Shown here one piece after another: positions 3-8,175 of a stretch of 64,000 nt of DNA; position 1 is the stretch's first letter, and every line of letters starts with the position of its first letter. Source of the DNA: Methylobacterium durans. GTDB lineage: Bacteria > Pseudomonadota > Alphaproteobacteria > Rhizobiales > Beijerinckiaceae. Where the stretch lies: assembly GCF_003173715.1 (NCBI RefSeq), contig NZ_CP029550.1:2899501-2963500 (forward strand), in the 5' to 3' direction. A program made the translations under genes and the position numbers. The notes under the pieces are model-generated. The model had not been told where the DNA came from and made no database searches. It worked only from the letters and a program-made list of their open reading frames with translations.

Positions 3-815
3 CCGGCGCAGTTCGAGGCGTCGGTGCTGAACCTGATCGTGAACGCGCGCGATGCCCTGGAAGGTGTCGACGGGCATGCGCGCATCGCCGTGAGCAGCAG
101 AAACATCCATCTCGGCACGGCCACAGTCGCCGACAAGGGCGTGCCTCCGGGGCCCTATGTGGTCGTCTCCGTGACCGACACCGGCAGCGGCATTCCACCC
201 GACAAGCTTCAGCGCGTGTTCGAGCCGTTCTTCACCACCAAGGAGGTCGGCAAGGGAACGGGGCTCGGGCTCAGCCAAGTCTACGGCTTCACGCGTAGCG
301 CCAAGGGCTTTACCCAGATCGAGTCGGAAGTCGGCAAGGGCACGACGGTCAGCTTGTACTTTCCGCGTTCGACCGACCCGGCCGACGAGGAGACGGGCGC
401 TGGTCCGGCGAGTTCGATCCCGCTGCGCCGAGCCGGCGAGGGCGAGACGGTGCTGCTGGTGGAGGACGACGAGCAGGTGCTCAGGATGGCTGTCGAGAGC
501 CTGGAGGAGTTGCGCTACCGGGTCATCGTCGCTCGCAACGCCGCCGAGGCACTGGAGCACCTTCGAGGCGTGGAGCGTATCGACATCCTGTTCTCCGACG
601 TGGTCATGCCCGGCGGCATGAACGGGTCGCAGTTGGCGGTCGAGGCACAGAAGCTTCGGCCCGGCATCAAGGTCCTGCTCACGTCAGGCTACGTCGCAAA
701 CCTCGACGAAGGTCAGGTGATGGCCCAGGGTGAGATGCCGGTCCTGAACAAGCCCTACCGCCGCGACGAGCTCGCCCGCTCGCTGCGCCTGGTGCTGGGG
801 CAAGAGGGGCGTTGA
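3..815 (+). CDS. Hybrid sensor histidine kinase, C-terminal part (5' end outside window)
   Basis: The reading frame is open to the window edge, so the input and dimerisation domains are missing. What remains starts in the N box (LNLIVNARDAL) of a HATPase_c domain. It continues with the G1, F and G2 boxes (TGSGIP, FEPFFTTK, GTGLGLSQVYGF) and ends with a receiver domain whose acidic pair VEDDE, phospho-acceptor SDVVMPG and KPYRRDEL lysine are all visible. The architecture is that of hybrid kinases that pass phosphate to an attached REC domain; the input signal cannot be inferred. GC content is backbone-like, so it probably belongs to the chromosome bordering the foreign segment that follows. 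Confidence 0.9.
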   Translation, partial: PAQFEASVLNLIVNARDALEGVDGHARIAVSSRNIHLGTATVADKGVPPGPYVVVSVTDTGSGIPPDKLQRVFEPFFTTKEVGKGTGLGLSQVYGFTRSAKGFTQIESEVGKGTTVSLYFPRSTDPADEETGAGPASSIPLRRAGEGETVLLVEDDEQVLRMAVESLEELRYRVIVARNAAEALEHLRGVERIDILFSDVVMPGGMNGSQLAVEAQKLRPGIKVLLTSGYVANLDEGQVMAQGEMPVLNKPYRRDELARSLRLVLGQEGR

Positions 816-947
816 CCCGTCACCGAGGGCGCCAACGACTGGCGTGAGTGCGGGCGGCAACGGCGCACATAGGAGCTCGAGGCCGGCGCGTTGTGGCTGC
901 CTACCTGCAAGAGGTCCGCTTGCTGTCAGGAGTCGGAACTTCGGTTT

Positions 948-979
948 GAACAGACCCGAGGTCCGGTCCGGGTCTGTTC
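948..979. repeat. Perfect 11-bp inverted repeat
   Basis: The arms GAACAGACCCG (948-958) and CGGGTCTGTTC (969-979) are exact reverse complements around a 10-nt loop, 133 bp after the kinase stop codon. There is no T-run behind it, so a factor-independent terminator is doubtful. It may be a terminator for the kinase transcript, an operator or an element end. Confidence 0.5.
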
Positions 980-1665
980 GGGGCATTCAGCTGAACCGCA
1001 CCAATCGTCCGCTTTCTCACGATCTAAGCTCCGAAGCGGACGGGCCGCAAACGGCCAACATCGGCCGTGAACCTTCGGAACAGCCCGCTCCAAACACGCC
1101 GTTCCGATAGCTGACACAGGCGGACCCCACTTCTGTCGAGCCAGCATCGTGTAGCTTGAGATATAGCCCGTTGAGACGATGACTCGAGCGACTGTTGCTG
1201 CATCATCATGGTAGTACAATCAGCTCACAATCCAGGCAGCATGACAGCGCTAAATTCCCGACAGCGAGCGCATTGGGTGTGATCTTCGTCGGAGGGCCCG
1301 CAATGAGCGCCCCGAGTAAGGCGCATGACTCATCTGTCGGAAAATAGAGGGATTAACGATACTGCTATCCGTTTTGCCTGCGAGGACATGGCGGGCGTTG
1401 TGTGATTTTACCAGGTTTCTCAAGTGGTTAGTTCAAAATCTTGCGCTTAGCGCGTTGAGAGTTCAACTGGCTCAACTTTACTATTTCCTGCTGCGCAGCA
1501 GGCGCGGTGTCGCTCCGAAGCCGCCTGTGGTCAGCAACGAGCGTAAATCACTGATCCCCGTACCCGACCCGTCCCAGAGCCCGCCGCTCGGGCGACCCTC
1601 TCGCCACCCGTTAAAGAAGGTGCAAGCGGGTGTGTCCATCGACTCGACTCCAATCAAATTCAACG

Positions 1666-1677
1666 AGGGATAGCTGC
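1666..1677. repeat. Candidate attL: 12-bp direct repeat, left copy
   Basis: AGGGATAGCTGC occurs here and again at 6570-6581, at the 3' end of the integrase gene and directly before gloA. Integrase-made attachment repeats have this arrangement. Twelve bases is short, and the DNA left of this copy is also low in GC, so this is only a candidate boundary. Confidence 0.3.
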
Positions 1678-1893
1678 TTCCCACACCGAACAATCAAAAG
1701 TGCAATAGGATGTAAATGAGCGCATTTGGGGCTCATCTATTAGTTTAGCACCTGAGACATGCAGTCGCAGGGTTGCGCAGTAGGTAATTATGAAGTACGC
1801 ATGTTGCGCCATTTGGTAGTTTGAGAAAAGATGGGCGTCAGTGCGTCAACGGGGAAACCGGTATTTGTTGTTTATAGTCATTTCCTATTGTTA

Positions 1894-1928
1894 TTACCGT
1901 AAGTTCGGTAAGCAAGGCTTACCTTTTT
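1894..1928 (+). promoter_or_regulatory. Attenuator-like overlapping hairpins before the 1987 gene
   Basis: Two mutually exclusive stems share bases. TTACCG (1894-1899) can pair with CGGTAA (1906-1911). Alternatively GGTAAGC (1907-1913) can pair with GCTTACC (1917-1923), and that second stem is followed at once by five T (1924-1928), the form of an intrinsic terminator. Such antiterminator/terminator pairs control entry into the gene downstream, which starts 58 bp later. The pairing is read from sequence; the regulation is inference. Confidence 0.45.
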
Positions 1929-1986
1929 GCGCGGATTGAAGCGCCTCCTCCTGGCGGATATCTCTGTGGCTCTCACGGAGATGATC

Positions 1987-2457
1987 ATGCCAAAACAAAC
2001 ATTCGAGGAATTATTTCTTGAAGCCGCTGCCGCTCGGTCTCCGAGGGAGGTCCGCTCTGTGGCCCTGCTCGTGGAGGAAGTGCCGGTAGCCCCACAACTG
2101 CGATTTCTTCGCAAACTGTTCGACAAAGTACATATAGCCGCGTCTCTCATTGAGATTGCGACATTGATCGAGATAGACCCTGAGATCGAAATGGTTATGG
2201 TCTTCTCTATGGCCTCTGAGGAAGGTCTTGAAGATTATCTTAAGGAAATCCACCAGGATCATGCTCATCTGATGATCGTAAGCGTAGAAACTCAATTCAG
2301 CATTAGTTGGGAATCAAGACAAATAGAGACACAGCAGTATTTCAATCTAATCGAATACGAGGATCCGGAATCTGTTGGTAGATCTCTCAGCTCCAATGCA
2401 TTGTTTTTCAAGGAAATCGTCCAAGCTCATCGGGAGCTTGGGGCGCCCAAAACTTAA
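1987..2457 (+). CDS. Unrecognised 156-residue protein, element cargo
   Basis: I do not recognise the family. The protein is acidic and soluble-looking, with no signal peptide or membrane segment. Its centre has a hydrophobic, strand-rich stretch around residues 55-85 followed by an acidic helix (EEGLEDYLKEI). I chose the ATG at 1987 because CGGAG ends six bases before it; a TTG at 1927 and an ATG at 1981 are alternatives. GC is clearly below the dcw genes nearby, indicating transfer. It sits alone behind an attenuator-like leader and upstream of the Rep-like gene, the usual place for accessory or regulatory cargo in small integrated elements. Confidence 0.6.
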   Translation: MPKQTFEELFLEAAAARSPREVRSVALLVEEVPVAPQLRFLRKLFDKVHIAASLIEIATLIEIDPEIEMVMVFSMASEEGLEDYLKEIHQDHAHLMIVSVETQFSISWESRQIETQQYFNLIEYEDPESVGRSLSSNALFFKEIVQAHRELGAPKT

Positions 2458-2489
2458 GCGTTGAGCTGTTGGGTAGATCCTTCTGGCAG

Positions 2490-2510
2490 GAGCGGATCAT
2501 TGGTCCGCTC
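2490..2510. terminator. 7-bp inverted repeat between cargo gene and rep
   Basis: GAGCGGA and TCCGCTC flank a 7-nt loop 32 bp after the cargo gene stop and 30 bp before the rep start. There is no T-run, so it may be a weak terminator or an operator controlling rep. Confidence 0.35.
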
Positions 2511-2540
2511 TTCAGAAACGTATTCGCGCTTGGATGAGTT

Positions 2541-4784
2541 ATGAGGATACCTCCCGCAAAAACCCGCTTGCTCAAAGATTGGCCTTGTGCTTCTCAAACT
2601 TGTGATCTTATCACGCCTGAGCCAGCGTTCGATGTCTCGGGTGCTCCCAAGAGCGCCGAGGAGCATGCCACAGCTGCAATCCCAGCGAGGGCGTGCTCCG
2701 AGGTCGATCGCAGTCGTGAACACAGCGTCGAGGTCCTGACGCATTCTCTGACGATCGAGGATGTTGAGGCGGACCTGTACGCGGCAATCGGGTACGAGCC
2801 GCCGGCTGAGGCAGCAGAAACGGTAAAGCCTATCGAAACCGGCACAGTCCGCGTAACGACGGGCGTTTGCCGGAAAGATAAATTCGGCCTCGGCGAACTG
2901 TCCGAAGCCCGTGCTGCCGAGGCAGCGACGGCAGGCGAACCTCGTCGACGCAAGCCGTCGCGGAAGAAGCGTGTCGTCGCTGCCTTCGACTCGTGGGTCG
3001 AGAACGATCCTGATCATCGTGCGGCGGTCGAGCAAGTTGCAGAGGCGGAACGGCGCTATGAGGCCGCTTTGGGCGCTGCAACGCCGGACATGCGCCAGAT
3101 TGCGGTCACCTACGAGGAGATACGGGAAAGTCTCGCGATTTGTGAGGATTTCCACATCAACCAGGTCGAGTCGATCGCCAGGCTGATTCAACGATGCGGC
3201 ACGCCAGGTGCATTCGCCTGCGGATCCTACTGGTGCACGCCCTGCCGACGCCGCTTTGGTGCGCGTCTCCTTGCTGATACGCGGACGCAGCTCACGAAGC
3301 GCTACGGTACGGATCTTGAGCAAGCGAGACCTTTTCTCCTCCATGTGACGATCCTGAACGACATTGTAATTCCCGATCCCGACCTTGATCGTGACTTTGG
3401 TGCCAACTTCTCGGCATCGACGGTCCGCCGCGACCATCGTGAGCTGCTTTCTCACCTGAGGCGCTGGCAGTCAGATCGTCGTAGCGCGCTGTGTCAGTTC
3501 CTCGACAAGCGCCACCTAAGCTTGGAGCTGATCGAAGACTGGGTATTGGGCGGGAACCGGGACCGGACGTTTTACAGCGCCGACAACCTATATGCCGATG
3601 CCCGCCGCCTCGTAGCCTTGAATGACGTAATTGCGTTGGCGCATGATCAATTCAAATCTCGACGCAGCTGGCTAAAGGATCCTCCTTCGGAGTTTGTCTC
3701 CTGGCGCGACAAGGACCGACCCAACGAATTCATGTTTCAGCTCAGGAGGGCGCAGAAACTTGACTACAAAGACATCTATCGCATCGCGCAGGATTTGCAA
3801 AACATCTCGCGCGCTTTTTGCGGAATTACCAAAACGAGGTTCCCAGAGCGGCTCAAGTATCTAAGTTCGATTCGCAAGGTACTGAAGCGTGAGCGTAGCC
3901 GGCTCTACCGTCTGAATAAGGATCTACCGGGTCTCTCACTCATTGGCCAGTTCGAGTTGGAGCTGGTCGACCTGCGCCATTCGATCGGTGGCACCCACCA
4001 CCACACGACGAAGTCGAAGACGTTGCGGATCCTCGCCTCACAAGAGCGAAAGCCATCGAAGCCACGCAATTCTGAGGGGCCGGTGTCGTTCGAGACGCAA
4101 CGGCGGCGCCTGAAGCAGGGCGCCAAGATGCGGCTACTCGATGAGGCACGCGAGCGGATCGCCCGTAACGAGGAACTGCCGAAAGATGAGTTTCCGGGAC
4201 TGCAGTACGCCGTGTTGCTCCACATGCACGTGCTGATCGATCTGAATGGCCATAGCCGAGATGACGTCGAAAGGTGGCTGACCGGCAAAGAAGTTGGCGA
4301 GAGGCGGTTCACGGGACGCTGGCCCCTCCAGCATCAGGTGATGACCAAGAAGCTGTTCGACGACAAACCCGTCGACGACAGCCTGCGCCATATCAGCTTC
4401 TACCCTTTCAAGGCGCCCATCGCACTCAATTACGAGAACACGGCTCCTAAGCAGGACGAGGATCTGGCGGAGGGGGACCCCGCCAACTTCCCTGACGAAG
4501 CGCTCGCGCTGATCGCGTGGCTTCAGCATGGGATCGGGCACGAGAGCCTGCGGCTTGCAATCAACTGGCCGGGCGCCAATCGAGAAAAACGTGGGCGAAA
4601 GCCAAAATTCTCAGGACCTCCGAAGGTAACCGAGGAAGAGTTCGACGAAGAGTTTGGGGTGCATCTTGCGGAGCTTGGCGTCGTCCGACCGAAGGACCCA
4701 GTGGGTCAAACCGACCTGAGCCAACTGTTCGAGAATACGGATATTAACGATACTACCTCCTCTTCCGAGGGCAGCGAGGACTAG
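2541..4784 (+). CDS. Putative HUH-type replication initiator / relaxase-like protein
   Basis: 747 residues. The first 200 residues are low-complexity and charged (RRRKPSRKKR near 135). A cysteine cluster follows (C219, C227, C232, C235), resembling the zinc-ribbon-like segment that precedes the catalytic core in rolling-circle Rep proteins. Next come a hydrophobic strand (FLLHVTIL, about 265-272), a long helical insert, a second strand (GQFELELVDL, about 469-478) and an H-x-H motif in HMHVLIDL (561-568), which fits the metal-binding HUH signature. Y621 or Y631 in the following YPFKAPIALNY segment could be the nicking tyrosine. The tail is acidic and serine-rich. A gene for a small DNA-binding protein and an integrase follow, so a role in starting replication or transfer of the excised element fits. 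The assignment rests on motif order only, since overall similarity could not be searched. Confidence 0.5.
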   Translation: MRIPPAKTRLLKDWPCASQTCDLITPEPAFDVSGAPKSAEEHATAAIPARACSEVDRSREHSVEVLTHSLTIEDVEADLYAAIGYEPPAEAAETVKPIETGTVRVTTGVCRKDKFGLGELSEARAAEAATAGEPRRRKPSRKKRVVAAFDSWVENDPDHRAAVEQVAEAERRYEAALGAATPDMRQIAVTYEEIRESLAICEDFHINQVESIARLIQRCGTPGAFACGSYWCTPCRRRFGARLLADTRTQLTKRYGTDLEQARPFLLHVTILNDIVIPDPDLDRDFGANFSASTVRRDHRELLSHLRRWQSDRRSALCQFLDKRHLSLELIEDWVLGGNRDRTFYSADNLYADARRLVALNDVIALAHDQFKSRRSWLKDPPSEFVSWRDKDRPNEFMFQLRRAQKLDYKDIYRIAQDLQNISRAFCGITKTRFPERLKYLSSIRKVLKRERSRLYRLNKDLPGLSLIGQFELELVDLRHSIGGTHHHTTKSKTLRILASQERKPSKPRNSEGPVSFETQRRRLKQGAKMRLLDEARERIARNEELPKDEFPGLQYAVLLHMHVLIDLNGHSRDDVERWLTGKEVGERRFTGRWPLQHQVMTKKLFDDKPVDDSLRHISFYPFKAPIALNYENTAPKQDEDLAEGDPANFPDEALALIAWLQHGIGHESLRLAINWPGANREKRGRKPKFSGPPKVTEEEFDEEFGVHLAELGVVRPKDPVGQTDLSQLFENTDINDTTSSSEGSED

Positions 4785-4785
4785 C

Positions 4786-4813
4786 GATAGGCCAAGAGAT
4801 GCCTTGGCCTATC
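4786..4813 (+). terminator. Perfect 11-bp hairpin directly after rep
   Basis: GATAGGCCAAG (4786-4796) pairs exactly with CTTGGCCTATC (4803-4813) around a 6-nt loop, starting two bases after the rep stop codon. The position suggests a terminator, although no T-run follows. A replication-origin hairpin recognised by the Rep protein is the alternative. Confidence 0.6.
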
Positions 4814-4844
4814 AATGGGTTAGATCCAGCAGAGAGTAGCCGAC

Positions 4845-4881
4845 GGGGCCTGGAATTCGCCAAACCGTCGAATTCGGCCCC
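4845..4881. repeat. Bulged 13-bp hairpin in the rep-xis gap
   Basis: GGGGCC plus GAATTCG (4845-4859, with a two-base TG bulge between them) can pair with CGAATTC plus GGCCCC (4869-4881) around a 9-nt loop. It lies 32 bp past the first hairpin. Two strong hairpins next to a Rep gene are what a nick site (double-strand origin) would look like, but no cleavage motif is recognised. Confidence 0.4.
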
Positions 4882-5067
4882 TTCTGGACGTGCCTGAGAC
4901 CAGCCAAGCACTCAGGCGAGCAGCCCACACAAAGCACAACGGATCCGAACCTTGCTCCTAGAGGAGCGAGAACGCTCACGCTTGGCTTCGGCTCGCTGAA
5001 CTCGGCTGACCAAACGGCATCCAAGATCAGAACTCAAAATTCAATCCAACAATATGAGGTGAGCATG

Positions 5068-5418
5068 ATGGTCAATCCCAAAGGCATGTCTCATGAAGAG
5101 CTGATGCGTATCAGAATTGAGGTGGGGCGGACATACGGCATCAAGCTCTACCAGCAATATCCAGAGCGCGAGGCTGCGCGGCTGCTCCTGCCTTCTGACG
5201 AACGTCCAGAAGGAAGCGCCGACACCTCCACGCTCAAGCGCAAACGGCGGACCAATAAAATTCCTTATGTCGCGTGTGGCGACGGATCCGTCGCTTACCT
5301 CGGCCTGATGCTGTGCGACTTCATCATCTTCGGTGAAAACTCGATGCTTTTGTGGGGTGACAACGCCCCACCGCCTTCTCCCCAGGCCCCACCGGACGAT
5401 GCTGCTCCAAGCCCTTGA
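5068..5418 (+). CDS. Excisionase/AlpA-like winged-helix protein
   Basis: 116 residues. The pattern EAARLL, then STLKRKRRTNKIPYVACG, then GSVAYLGLMLCDFI copies the MerR/AlpA/excisionase fold: a helix-turn-helix followed by a wing of the type 'IPYxxxG..VxY...L..FI'. The C-terminus is proline-rich. It lies 42 bp upstream of the integrase on the same strand, the normal place for a recombination directionality factor. I placed the start at 5068 because GAGGTGA ends five bases before it; ATG 5065 and GTG 5059 are in the same frame. The family call is from pattern only, and the protein could instead be a transcription regulator of the element. Confidence 0.55.
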   Translation: MVNPKGMSHEELMRIRIEVGRTYGIKLYQQYPEREAARLLLPSDERPEGSADTSTLKRKRRTNKIPYVACGDGSVAYLGLMLCDFIIFGENSMLLWGDNAPPPSPQAPPDDAAPSP

Positions 5419-5460
5419 GATGGGGGAGGGCGGATCTGGCACAGGAGGCAGGAGGGTCCG

Positions 5461-6585
5461 GTGGGCCGATACACCAAGCGTGAGCATGCAGCCGGCAAGT
5501 TCTGGCTCGACGTACGACCCAACAGCCCAGCCTACTGCAGGCTGGAGGGCCGACAGGTCAGGCGCAAGTCGACCGGGACTGACGACCTCGAGCTAGCGAA
5601 GAAGGCGCTCAAGGCTCACTACCTCGCCGAGGACAACCCCGACAGCCAGGACGTCACGCGAGTTCCGGTCTCGGAGGTCGTTCACGCCTACTACGCGCAA
5701 CACGGGCAGCACGTGCCCGCTCGCAAATGGCTGAAGTCCGCGGTCGGTCACTGGACGCGGTTTTATGGCGAGGAGAGCGTCTGGGCCGCAACACGCATCC
5801 CTCGGATCGAACGCTTCATCGACGATCTCAAGCGGAGGGACCTCAGCCCGTCCTCCATCAACGCGATCCTCTCGGCAGGCCGCGCCGCGCTGAACCGAGC
5901 GTGGCGACGCAGCGAGATTTCTCGCCAGATCTACGTGCCGAGCCTGAAGGTGACGAAGGTCGCGCCCAAGGGCCGTCCGCTCTCCGTCGATGAGTGTGCG
6001 GGTTGGCTCGACGCCTCAGCTCCTCACTTCCACACGCTCCTGTTCATTTGCCTCGCCACGGGAAGTCGGCCGGAGGCGGTGAAGGAGCTGCGCTGGACGC
6101 AAGTCGACTTCGAGGATGCACTCCTGCACCTGAACCATGAGGACCGAGAGCAGACGACGAAGCACCGACCGGTCGTGAAGATGCCACCGTCGCTGATCGC
6201 ATATCTGCGGCAGCTCGGTCGCGAATCAGACTTTGTGGTCAGCTTCCGGGGTAAGCCAGTAAACCGGTACTACACCGCGCTGGGCGAGAGCCGGACGCGC
6301 GCTGGGCTCGATGGGCGGGTGAACCTTTACAGCCCGAGGCATACGGTCGCACGATGGATGCGCAAGGAGCGCGTCCCCTTCGAGGAGGTATCCGGACAGC
6401 TTGGCCATCGGGTGCAGGGGTTTGCGATCACCGAGATCTATGCGGCCTACTCGCCGGACTACCAGGCTCTAGCTACGGCGGCGATCGAGCGGCTGCTGCA
6501 GGCGATCGCCGTGCAAAGCCGATCTTGTCATTTTCTGCTCAGGGCTGAAGAAAAGCCCTCGCAAAACAAAGGGATAGCTGCCTGA
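5461..6585 (+). CDS. Tyrosine recombinase / phage-type integrase
   Basis: 374 residues. An N-terminal DNA-binding region and a SAM-like core-binding domain (about 70-160) precede the catalytic domain. Box I arginine is in ATGSRPEAVKELRW, and a conserved basic strand follows (TKHRPVVKMP). The HxxR motif appears as YSPR, a tyrosine-for-histidine change that some integrases have; then come GQLGH and the nucleophile in TEIYAAY. The GTG start is supported by AGGAGG 8-13 bases upstream. It should catalyse integration and excision of the surrounding element. Its last 30 residues diverge from the family pattern and lie over the candidate attachment repeat, and its TGA overlaps the gloA ATG, so the C-terminus was probably formed by insertion. 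Confidence 0.9.
   Translation: MGRYTKREHAAGKFWLDVRPNSPAYCRLEGRQVRRKSTGTDDLELAKKALKAHYLAEDNPDSQDVTRVPVSEVVHAYYAQHGQHVPARKWLKSAVGHWTRFYGEESVWAATRIPRIERFIDDLKRRDLSPSSINAILSAGRAALNRAWRRSEISRQIYVPSLKVTKVAPKGRPLSVDECAGWLDASAPHFHTLLFICLATGSRPEAVKELRWTQVDFEDALLHLNHEDREQTTKHRPVVKMPPSLIAYLRQLGRESDFVVSFRGKPVNRYYTALGESRTRAGLDGRVNLYSPRHTVARWMRKERVPFEEVSGQLGHRVQGFAITEIYAAYSPDYQALATAAIERLLQAIAVQSRSCHFLLRAEEKPSQNKGIAA
6541..6559 (+). terminator. Hairpin inside the 3' end of the integrase gene
   Basis: AGGGCT and AGCCCT form a 6-bp stem around GAAGAAA. The stem lies in the coding tail just before the candidate attachment repeat and could end element transcription before gloA. No T-run is present. Confidence 0.25.
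6570..6581. repeat. Candidate attR: 12-bp direct repeat, right copy
   Basis: This is the second copy of AGGGATAGCTGC (see 1666-1677). It ends three bases before the gloA ATG and includes the purine-rich stretch that would serve as the gloA ribosome site. Recombination between the two copies would keep that stretch, so gloA would stay translatable after excision. Confidence 0.3.
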
Positions 6586-7025
6586 TGGAGTATCTGCACA
6601 CGATGGTCCGGGTGGCGGATCTCGACCGCGCGCTCGCCTTCTACGTGGACGCGTTCGGCTTGCACGAGGTGCGCCGCGTCGAGAACGAGAAGGGCCGCTT
6701 CACCCTCGTCTTCCTCGCGGCTCCCGGCGACGTCGAGCGGGCGGAGGCGTCGAGATCGCCCCTCGTCGAACTGACCTACAATTGGGACCCGGAGGCGTAC
6801 ACGGGCGGACGCAATTTCGGCCACCTCGCCTATCAGGTCGAGGACATCTACGCCTTCTGCCAGCGGCTGAAGGACCGGGGCGTCACGATCAACCGGCCTC
6901 CGCGGGACGGCCACATGGCCTTCGTGAAGTCACCCGACGGCATCTCCATCGAGATTTTGCAGAAGGGCGGTTCGAAGCCGCCGCAGGAACCCTGGGCCTC
7001 GATGGAGAACACGGGCACGTGGTAG
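6585..7025 (+). CDS. gloA: Lactoylglutathione lyase (glyoxalase I)
   Basis: 146 residues, the usual size. It converts the hemithioacetal of methylglyoxal and glutathione to S-lactoylglutathione in the cytoplasm. The start MEYLHTMVRVADLDRALAFY is typical, and metal ligands are visible: H near residue 5, E in VELTYNW, H in FGHLAYQV and E in ISIEILQ. The segment TGGRNFGHLAY and the ending are standard for GloA. The integrase stop codon overlaps its start, so it sits at the right edge of the inserted element and may have lost its own promoter. Confidence 0.93.
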   Translation: MEYLHTMVRVADLDRALAFYVDAFGLHEVRRVENEKGRFTLVFLAAPGDVERAEASRSPLVELTYNWDPEAYTGGRNFGHLAYQVEDIYAFCQRLKDRGVTINRPPRDGHMAFVKSPDGISIEILQKGGSKPPQEPWASMENTGTW

Positions 7026-7030
7026 CCATT

Positions 7031-7063
7031 CGCGGCGAGGCCCCGCGCGGGCGCCTCGCCGCG
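7031..7063. terminator. Bidirectional terminator hairpin between convergent genes
   Basis: CGCGGCGAGGC (7031-7041) pairs perfectly with GCCTCGCCGCG (7053-7063). The 11-bp stem sits in the short gap between gloA and the convergent small gene, so it could serve both. Confidence 0.6.
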
Positions 7064-7070
7064 GCCTCTG

Positions 7071-7247
7071 TCAGCCCATTCCGGTCTCGGCGGCGGGCGT
7101 GATGCCGAGCTCGGCGAGCTTGGCCGTCACGGCCTCGATCGGCCGCTTGAGTTTGAGGCTCATCACCGAGACTGGGATGCGCTCGCGCGCCATCTCGGTG
7201 AGCTGCTGGACGGATTCGAGTGTCCAGGTCGTGTCCTGCATCGCCAT
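7071..7247 (-). CDS. Small GcrA-like/SANT-like protein (58 residues)
   Basis: The start at 7247 is backed by GGAGG a few bases upstream. The sequence W-x-x-E-x-V-x-x-L (WTLESVQQL), then IPVSVMSLKLKRP and EAVTAKLAELGI, resembles the helix-turn-helix of GcrA and SANT-like modules (WTxExVxxL...S..IA..L......V..K...LG). The protein is just that domain with no extension. It is convergent with gloA and divergent from rnpB. It may bind DNA, but the resemblance is by eye and the function is unknown. Confidence 0.6.
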   Translation of the reverse strand: MAMQDTTWTLESVQQLTEMARERIPVSVMSLKLKRPIEAVTAKLAELGITPAAETGMG

Positions 7248-7445: not shown

Positions 7446-7847
<402 letters not shown>

Positions 7848-8175
7848 GCCGCTCGGCCCCATTTTCCGCAGCTTCCTTACCCTCGGTTAACCTTGCTGAG
7901 GTCTGATCGGCGCCTGCGATCCTGCGGTTGCATGCGTTGACGATCCTCAGAGGCCCATGATACCCGCCAACATCCCGTCAACGGCGTATCTCGGATCGGC
8001 GGACGCGCCACGCGTTCGTCGCACGCTCAACCGTGCGCGCGTCCGCGTTCGTGCCACCGGCAACGCCCCGACGATCCGGCCCGCATCGCGGCGGGCTGCG
8101 GACGCTGTAGGCAGCCATGCAAGAACCCTCTCCGGACGAAGCCGTCAGGATTCCGCCTCAGCGCGCGAGGCCGCG
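7848..8175. other. Leader region of the dcw cluster
   Basis: 328 bp without a sizeable gene, and no mraZ, which often precedes rsmH in bacteria. It contains a CtrA-like half site TTAACC (7887-7892) and a possible promoter (TTGACG at 7937-7942, then ATACCC after 17 bp). A 20-codon open frame (8117-8179) ends over the rsmH start. Confidence 0.5.

Follow-up and report, generated by a model that had tools for sequence, protein, structure and literature searches.

The 64,000-nucleotide stretch of Methylobacterium durans analysed here (the window; contig NZ_CP029550.1, positions 2,899,501 to 2,963,500) carries, directly before the lactoylglutathione lyase-type gene gloA, the genes for a candidate replication initiator (rep), a candidate excisionase (xis) and a tyrosine integrase (int). 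These three genes are probably the right end of an inserted island that is far larger. Judged from the sequence comparisons described below, a genomic island of ~58.7 kb is the likely structure at 2847343-2906084 of G000:C1, the single contig of 6,788,375 bases of the window's genome (G000), and it appears to derive from a tyrosine-integrase element that uses the first gloA codons as its attachment (att) site. The insertion is of a recognisable kind, i.e., the 5' codons of the target gene were hit, the empty site is present in relatives, att repeats flank the insert, and the target reading frame was kept.

The extent of the island was derived from a relative, G021, in which pepN and gloA are 165 bp apart and which thus represents the empty site; in G000 this distance is 58,896 bp. 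The G021 DNA that matches G000 positions 2841972-2847342 (87% identity) joins gloA directly: the pepN flank matches up to 2847342, and G021 gloA matches from 2906071, with the gloA start of G000 at 2906085. The left end in G000 retains TTGACC...CAGATAGG followed by ATGGAATACCCGCACACCATAGT, which together correspond to the native gloA upstream region and the first ~23 bases of gloA. The latter stretch is the left att copy (G000:C1:2847320-2847342), which lies outside the window, ~52 kb left of its start, and is followed by AT-rich DNA that has no counterpart in G021. The right att copy, ATGGAGTATCTGCACACGATGGT, consists of the first gloA codons (window positions 6585-6607, plus strand), and the two copies are direct repeats at the island ends, identical at 18 of 23 positions. 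When 68 kb were scanned for the att core with up to 7 mismatches tolerated, no further copy was found at 6 mismatches or fewer, and one 7-mismatch match was located on the minus strand inside rep. Because the core was found only at the two ends and G021 holds the empty site, the island is taken to measure ~58.7 kb and to reach ~52 kb beyond the left edge of the window. The reading frame of gloA (6585-7025, plus strand, 146 aa, PF00903 5.3e-21) is intact across the junction, at which, as noted originally, the int stop overlaps the gloA start (TGATGG from 6583). Counting its own genome, 40 of 41 genomes contain a match to gloA, and no tRNA or tmRNA target is found in the window.

The original prediction, made from the letters of the window alone, described the segment 1666-6585 as a compact element with one unknown cargo gene. 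Its three linked genes are real, namely, the open reading frames (ORFs) at 2541-4784, 5059/5065-5418 and 5461-6585, and so is their lower GC content (0.47-0.63 for parts of the segment vs 0.71 for 7026-64000). Its left boundary and its size did not hold, since the GC content is already lowered from ~1000 on, the left end lies far outside the window, and the island carries kinases, a GGDEF-EAL protein, transposases and an ECF (extracytoplasmic function) sigma factor. The perfect 12-bp repeat AGGGATAGCTGC (1666-1677 and 6570-6581), considered as att site, was rejected as being at chance level: three pairs of repeated 12-mers were observed in 900-7100, where 2.26 would be expected, and this number was reached in 39% of 300 simulations. 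A 4.9-kb element was rejected on the basis of the G021 junction, the left gloA fragment and the att core scan. Its nested form, in which an independent 4.9-kb element, with the 12-bp repeats as its ends, entered the larger island as a second arrival, could draw on the perfection of the repeat, on the conservation of rep-xis-int as a unit and on genome G118, where an element of ~10 kb is suggested. We consider it very improbable, given that the repeat is not part of the core of gloA codons found at the left end, that this core marks the two island ends only, apart from the match inside rep, and that an RNase H gene (far left) and a MerR gene (middle) of the 58.7 kb accompany the module elsewhere. 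The lesson for annotation is that an apparently small element, when judged within a single window, can turn out to be the terminus of a much longer island.

The pepN-gloA locus is an insertion hotspot. In a comparison set of 111 genomes of the genus (Methylobacterium-type), pepN was identified in 110 and gloA in 110 as well, and their spacing could be scored (divergent genes on one contig) in 91. It does not exceed 250 bp in 57 of these and measures 251-600 bp in 3, 601-2000 bp in 17, 2-10 kb in 11 and 10-100 kb in 3, with G000 being the largest; hence, 34 of the 91 exceed 250 bp and 31 exceed 600 bp. The two genes are on different contigs in a further 17 genomes and far apart on one contig in 2. 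The segment is therefore absent from many relatives, whereas its presence at the same place in all of them would have spoken against an integrated element. Pieces of the gloA start were also found beside pepN in two genomes, G070 with 2 mismatches and G102 with 5, and in G112 a piece that differs from one of four cores by 2 mismatches lies 3.8 kb from pepN.

The module itself is conserved in other genomes. The Rep family was found in 6 of the 111 genomes and integrase relatives at E ≤ 1e-40 in 8. The genes rep, xis and int are consecutive in G000, G017 and G112; in G102 and G118 they are split up over the ends of contigs. All five modules are tied to the pepN-gloA locus: pepN is on the contig of the module or of its rep end in G017, G112 and G118, and gloA is on the contig of int in G000 and, in G102, on that of the int end. 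The remaining, sixth copy of Rep is that of G055 (L074 9175-10974; 50%), which is accompanied by a MerR gene and lies away from gloA; this genome has no related integrase and a pepN-gloA spacing of 132 bp. G120 has a more distantly related xis-int pair (43% and 52%) directly before gloA (L071 8384-9774), without the 747-aa Rep. The left ends of G000, G102, G112 and G118 align, with G000 the most diverged, and a profile built from these same four found no fifth among the related loci scanned. Close to the left end, G000, G102 and G118 have an RNase H gene, to which G063 gave one partial and weak match, and a MerR gene precedes rep in G000, G017, G102, G112, G118 and G055. A compact version is that of G118 (L075 3037-9497, L076 and L070 5784-6428), measuring ~10.3 kb from the left end to the int end over three contigs, if these abut. 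Its rep frame has a stop 268 bases before the end of the first contig, so rep may be interrupted and the abutting is uncertain. The first gloA codons are thereby marked as a hotspot with recognisable parts, namely, the left end, RNase H, MerR, rep, xis and int.

Several observations weigh against an origin of the island from an element that integrates at the first gloA codons. The att copies are mismatched at 5 of their 23 positions, and the flanks of the G118 element point to a different core (CTTGATG). In the other 38 of 40 pepN-side junctions scored, no gloA start was found within 8 mismatches and within 500 nt; the best match there has at least 9 mismatches, and therefore most inserts at pepN-gloA are considered to be older, different or rearranged. 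Furthermore, int in G017, G112 and G102 does not adjoin gloA and has a different C-terminal tail, from which it follows that those islands are composite. The present island may be an immobile composite relic, a smaller old element that was inflated by later insertions and no longer excises as a unit. This is compatible with the proposed origin, and we give it nearly even chances. It would explain the transposase genes inside the island (including two look-alike pairs of equal ORF lengths), the imperfect att copies, and the distances of ~23 kb between RNase H and MerR and ~31 kb between MerR and rep, vs ~3.3 and 0.3 kb in G118. The Int, Xis and Rep frames in the window are nevertheless open and without stops, and imperfect att repeats are also described for dusA islands in a paper that assays their excision (PMC4482086).

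For the element of origin, a mechanism can be proposed in which Int would catalyse recombination of attP, positioned between int and the left end, with attB, which falls within codons 1-8 of gloA. With the element would come an upstream region and first codons of its own, such that gloA would stay expressed. Excision would be directed by the AlpA-like protein, and the 747-aa protein would nick and replicate the excised circle in an HUH-type manner or serve another DNA-processing step. In G000, the island would have taken up cargo and transposases, and its mobility may have been lost.

Int (5461-6585, plus strand, 374 aa) is a tyrosine recombinase by its match to PF00589 (3.7e-9; 37 bits, cut-off 27.1), and it also matches the phrog_1 integrases (4.3e-36); together with the empty site of G021, this bears out the earlier view of an integrated element with a tyrosine integrase. 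Its Tyr327, encoded by the TAT codon at 6439-6441 (plus strand), is taken to be the catalytic tyrosine by analogy with the family. Xis (5065-5418, plus strand, 117 aa; with a start at 5059 or 5065, 117-119 aa) was assigned by family alignment. The AlpA-like character predicted for it stands at the level of the family, where HTH_17 (PF12728) was detected in 2 of 10 members (best E 1.1e-8; 4.5e-8 for the G120 member) and one member matches the phrog_66 excisionases at 0.003; the window protein alone has no Pfam match. It is thus a member of an AlpA/HTH_17-like family and a candidate excisionase.

The 747-aa candidate Rep (2541-4784, plus strand) is distinguished by invariant motifs and forms a family of its own, which, within the databases searched, appears to be confined to Methylobacterium and Methylorubrum. 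A database search with the single sequence gave 21 matches including itself, and all 7 that are named belong to these two genera; a second search, with the alignment of the window protein and its 20 relatives, again gave 21 and no new relatives, with the best 8000 candidates scored in each case. Neither the 50,697 phage records nor the 72,556 plasmid records gave a tblastn match, and none of the 20 stretches in IMG/VR that fit the pattern was confirmed. In GTDB contigs, the single-sequence scan confirmed 0 of 116 stretches, and the alignment scan yielded 4 loci, all from Methylobacterium. The Cys cluster and HxH motif noted in the original prediction are conserved: C219, C227, C232 and C235 are invariant in all 21 aligned sequences, as are H563, F471, E472, E474, H480, H486, H488, D567, Y621 and K624, and H561 is His in 20 of 21.

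The prediction that this protein is an HUH-like Rep is compatible with its motifs, and the profile searches did not bear it out, since none of the families that Pfam, PHROGs and NCBIfam listed at E ≤ 1 for the 21 members is a Rep family, and nothing was found in the PDB. The comparison partners were two alphaproteobacterial proteins of the Rep_1 family, which was found in 2 of 240 genomes. The zinc-knuckle CGSYW-C..C, aligned with CGSVWHCPVC of Rep_1, scores above all 40 column shuffles, and zinc-knuckle, strand, Glu-strand, HxH and Y-x-x-K follow one another as in the Rep_1 layout. In addition, 2 of the 21 members weakly match Zn_Tnp_IS91 (best E 0.21), the zinc domain of the IS91 transposases, which are HUH enzymes. 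It is therefore plausible, and unproven, that the protein is an HUH Rep that works like a Rep_1 initiator. That it is instead another nuclease or a DNA-binding protein strikes us as somewhat doubtful, even though the missing Rep-family match is in keeping with such a protein. The same applies to the unsplit profile comparison with the two Rep_1 proteins (17 columns, probability 22.5%), to the HxH region, in which the alignment of HMHVLI with HLHILV of Rep_1 does not stand above shuffles (2 and 3 of 40 reach the scores), and to the replacement of H561 by Tyr in one member. The protein adds a candidate family of initiators, to which the searched libraries contain no relative.

The 3' end of int deserves separate attention. 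Its last 48 codons, from the Tyr327 codon on, resemble DNA directly upstream of gloA in relatives (6441-6584, plus strand) and contain GGCCTAC-N18-CTAGCTA at 6444-6475. Upstream of gloA in 51 genomes (31 with more than 600 bp of spacing, 17 with split loci and three empty controls), TTGAC-N-(A/G)(G/T)ATA was found in 15 and TAGCTA in 22, with both in none and neither in 14; TAGCTA mostly has a GCCTAC-like stretch 18-19 bases ahead, as judged by eye. Among 20 further sites with spacings of 155-399 bp, TAGCTA was present in 11, the TTGAC type in 4 and both in 0. The TAGCTA-type copy of the window is the one inside int. Pre-gloA sequences were compared with the int tail at the DNA level for all 51 genomes; when translated, 18 of the 24 tested beat all 200 shuffles, some by one point. 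Clear int-tail protein matches precede gloA in nine genomes (G057, G112, G102, G105, G063, G116, G118, G075 and G017), and in G057 the tail has the same TGATGG junction, with Ser replacing Tyr. By these comparisons, several genomes have an int tail ahead of gloA. At the 20 further sites, one (G110) beats all 200 shuffles at the protein level, and G110, G053, G054 and G124 beat all 100 at the DNA level; G076, which lacks the motif, does so too. The resemblance of these sites, which have no large insert, to the int tail is thus weak, and they may or may not share its origin.

From this, we infer that the int tail may act as the gloA promoter. A wider scenario is tentative and, in our estimation, unlikely to be correct in full: the last 48 int codons would serve as promoter and leader of gloA, with GGCCTAC-N18-CTAGCTA having replaced TTGAC...GATAG upstream of gloA; the island would later have been lost or rebuilt in a Methylobacterium branch, with the tail kept as a lasting promoter; and the 747-aa protein would represent a new HUH initiator family. 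If true, the coding sequence of a mobile element would have been turned into a host promoter, and the locus offers a testable case in which the 3' end of an integrase gene may serve as promoter of the gene that was interrupted. Two related ideas were discarded. CTAGCTA is not supported as a genome-wide promoter motif, with CCTAC-N18-20-TAGCTA occurring 2 times in G000 and its backward control 17 times. A mechanistic reading of the gloA-side stubs that start right after the Tyr codon (window 6440-6442) was dropped because the sequence upstream of the stub is, by eye, alike in G105, G102, G112, G017 and G063, and one ancestral truncation suffices for these genomes.

Among known systems, three classes invite comparison, namely, dusA-associated islands, the integrative and conjugative element (ICE) SXT, and actinomycete ICEs (AICEs). 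SXT is conjugative, and AICEs have the gene order rep-xis-int and carry an FtsK-like Tra translocase. In the present island, 30 of the 76 predicted ORFs, mostly the larger ones and one of them cut at the locus end, were scanned with Pfam, and no conjugation or virion genes, relaxase or type IV secretion genes, or FtsK-like Tra translocase were found among them, in which it may differ from both SXT and AICEs. A close parallel is offered by the dusA-associated islands (IMEVchUSA3 and others), which are described as having an integrase adjoining the target, insertion into a housekeeping gene at its 5' end, imperfect att repeats of ~21 bp (a 21-bp consensus), and a new putative promoter and 5' codons supplied upstream after insertion with the frame kept (PMC8409611, PMC4482086). 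These features recur here, except that the promoter is a candidate, proposed from sequence resemblance. The present island differs in its target (gloA, which places it outside the dusA-island family proper), its Methylobacterium host, its candidate Rep and the position of the promoter-like sequence inside int. SXT, inserted in prfC, is likewise a 5'-end island (PMC8409611). AICEs such as pSAM2 combine RepSA rolling-circle initiators with integrases and xis, and those with tyrosine recombinases are placed mostly at tRNA 3' ends (PMC3218068), unlike the gloA 5' end used here; the initiator of the present module is a candidate only. In a literature search that left most subscription journals outside, no description was found that links integrative elements or integrase sites of Methylobacterium to gloA or glyoxalase, and gloA is absent from the main text of an integrase survey that the search brought up. 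The gloA 5' end is thus a site without a description found, in an island that is ordinary in kind; less ordinary are the unclassified initiator candidate and the int tail lying where the gloA promoter should be.

The cargo identified in the ORFs scanned includes hybrid kinases with PAS/GAF domains, a GGDEF-EAL protein, a response regulator that has a nucleotide cyclase domain, an ECF-type sigma factor, RNase H, regulators, a KaiC-like fragment (below the Pfam cut-off), and transposases that we take to be of the IS3 and IS256 types. The island contains one PF00589 gene. Within the window, cargo is represented by the 3' end of a PAS hybrid histidine kinase gene (24-815, plus strand; HATPase_c 6.3e-18, Response_reg 2.1e-15), the whole of which encodes 685 aa (G000:C1:2898258-2900315). 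It is directly preceded by the KaiC-like fragment, the two forming an island-borne pair at G000:C1:2897878-2900315. A 176-aa ORF with a GC content of 0.48 (1927-2457, plus strand) is either island cargo or a gene of the element; it has weak matches only (Pfam 0.043, below cut-off; PHROG 0.1), no NCBIfam match, and no tblastn match at 1e-5 in 13 related loci. The two look-alike transposase pairs are located at G000:C1:2854445-2855796 and 2896415-2897766, each with ORFs of 124 and 326 aa, and the pair that was scanned contains HTH_Tnp_1 and rve. On the other side of the junction, 3' of gloA, the window encodes a class A RNase P RNA (7449-7848; Rfam RF00010, 287.4 bits).

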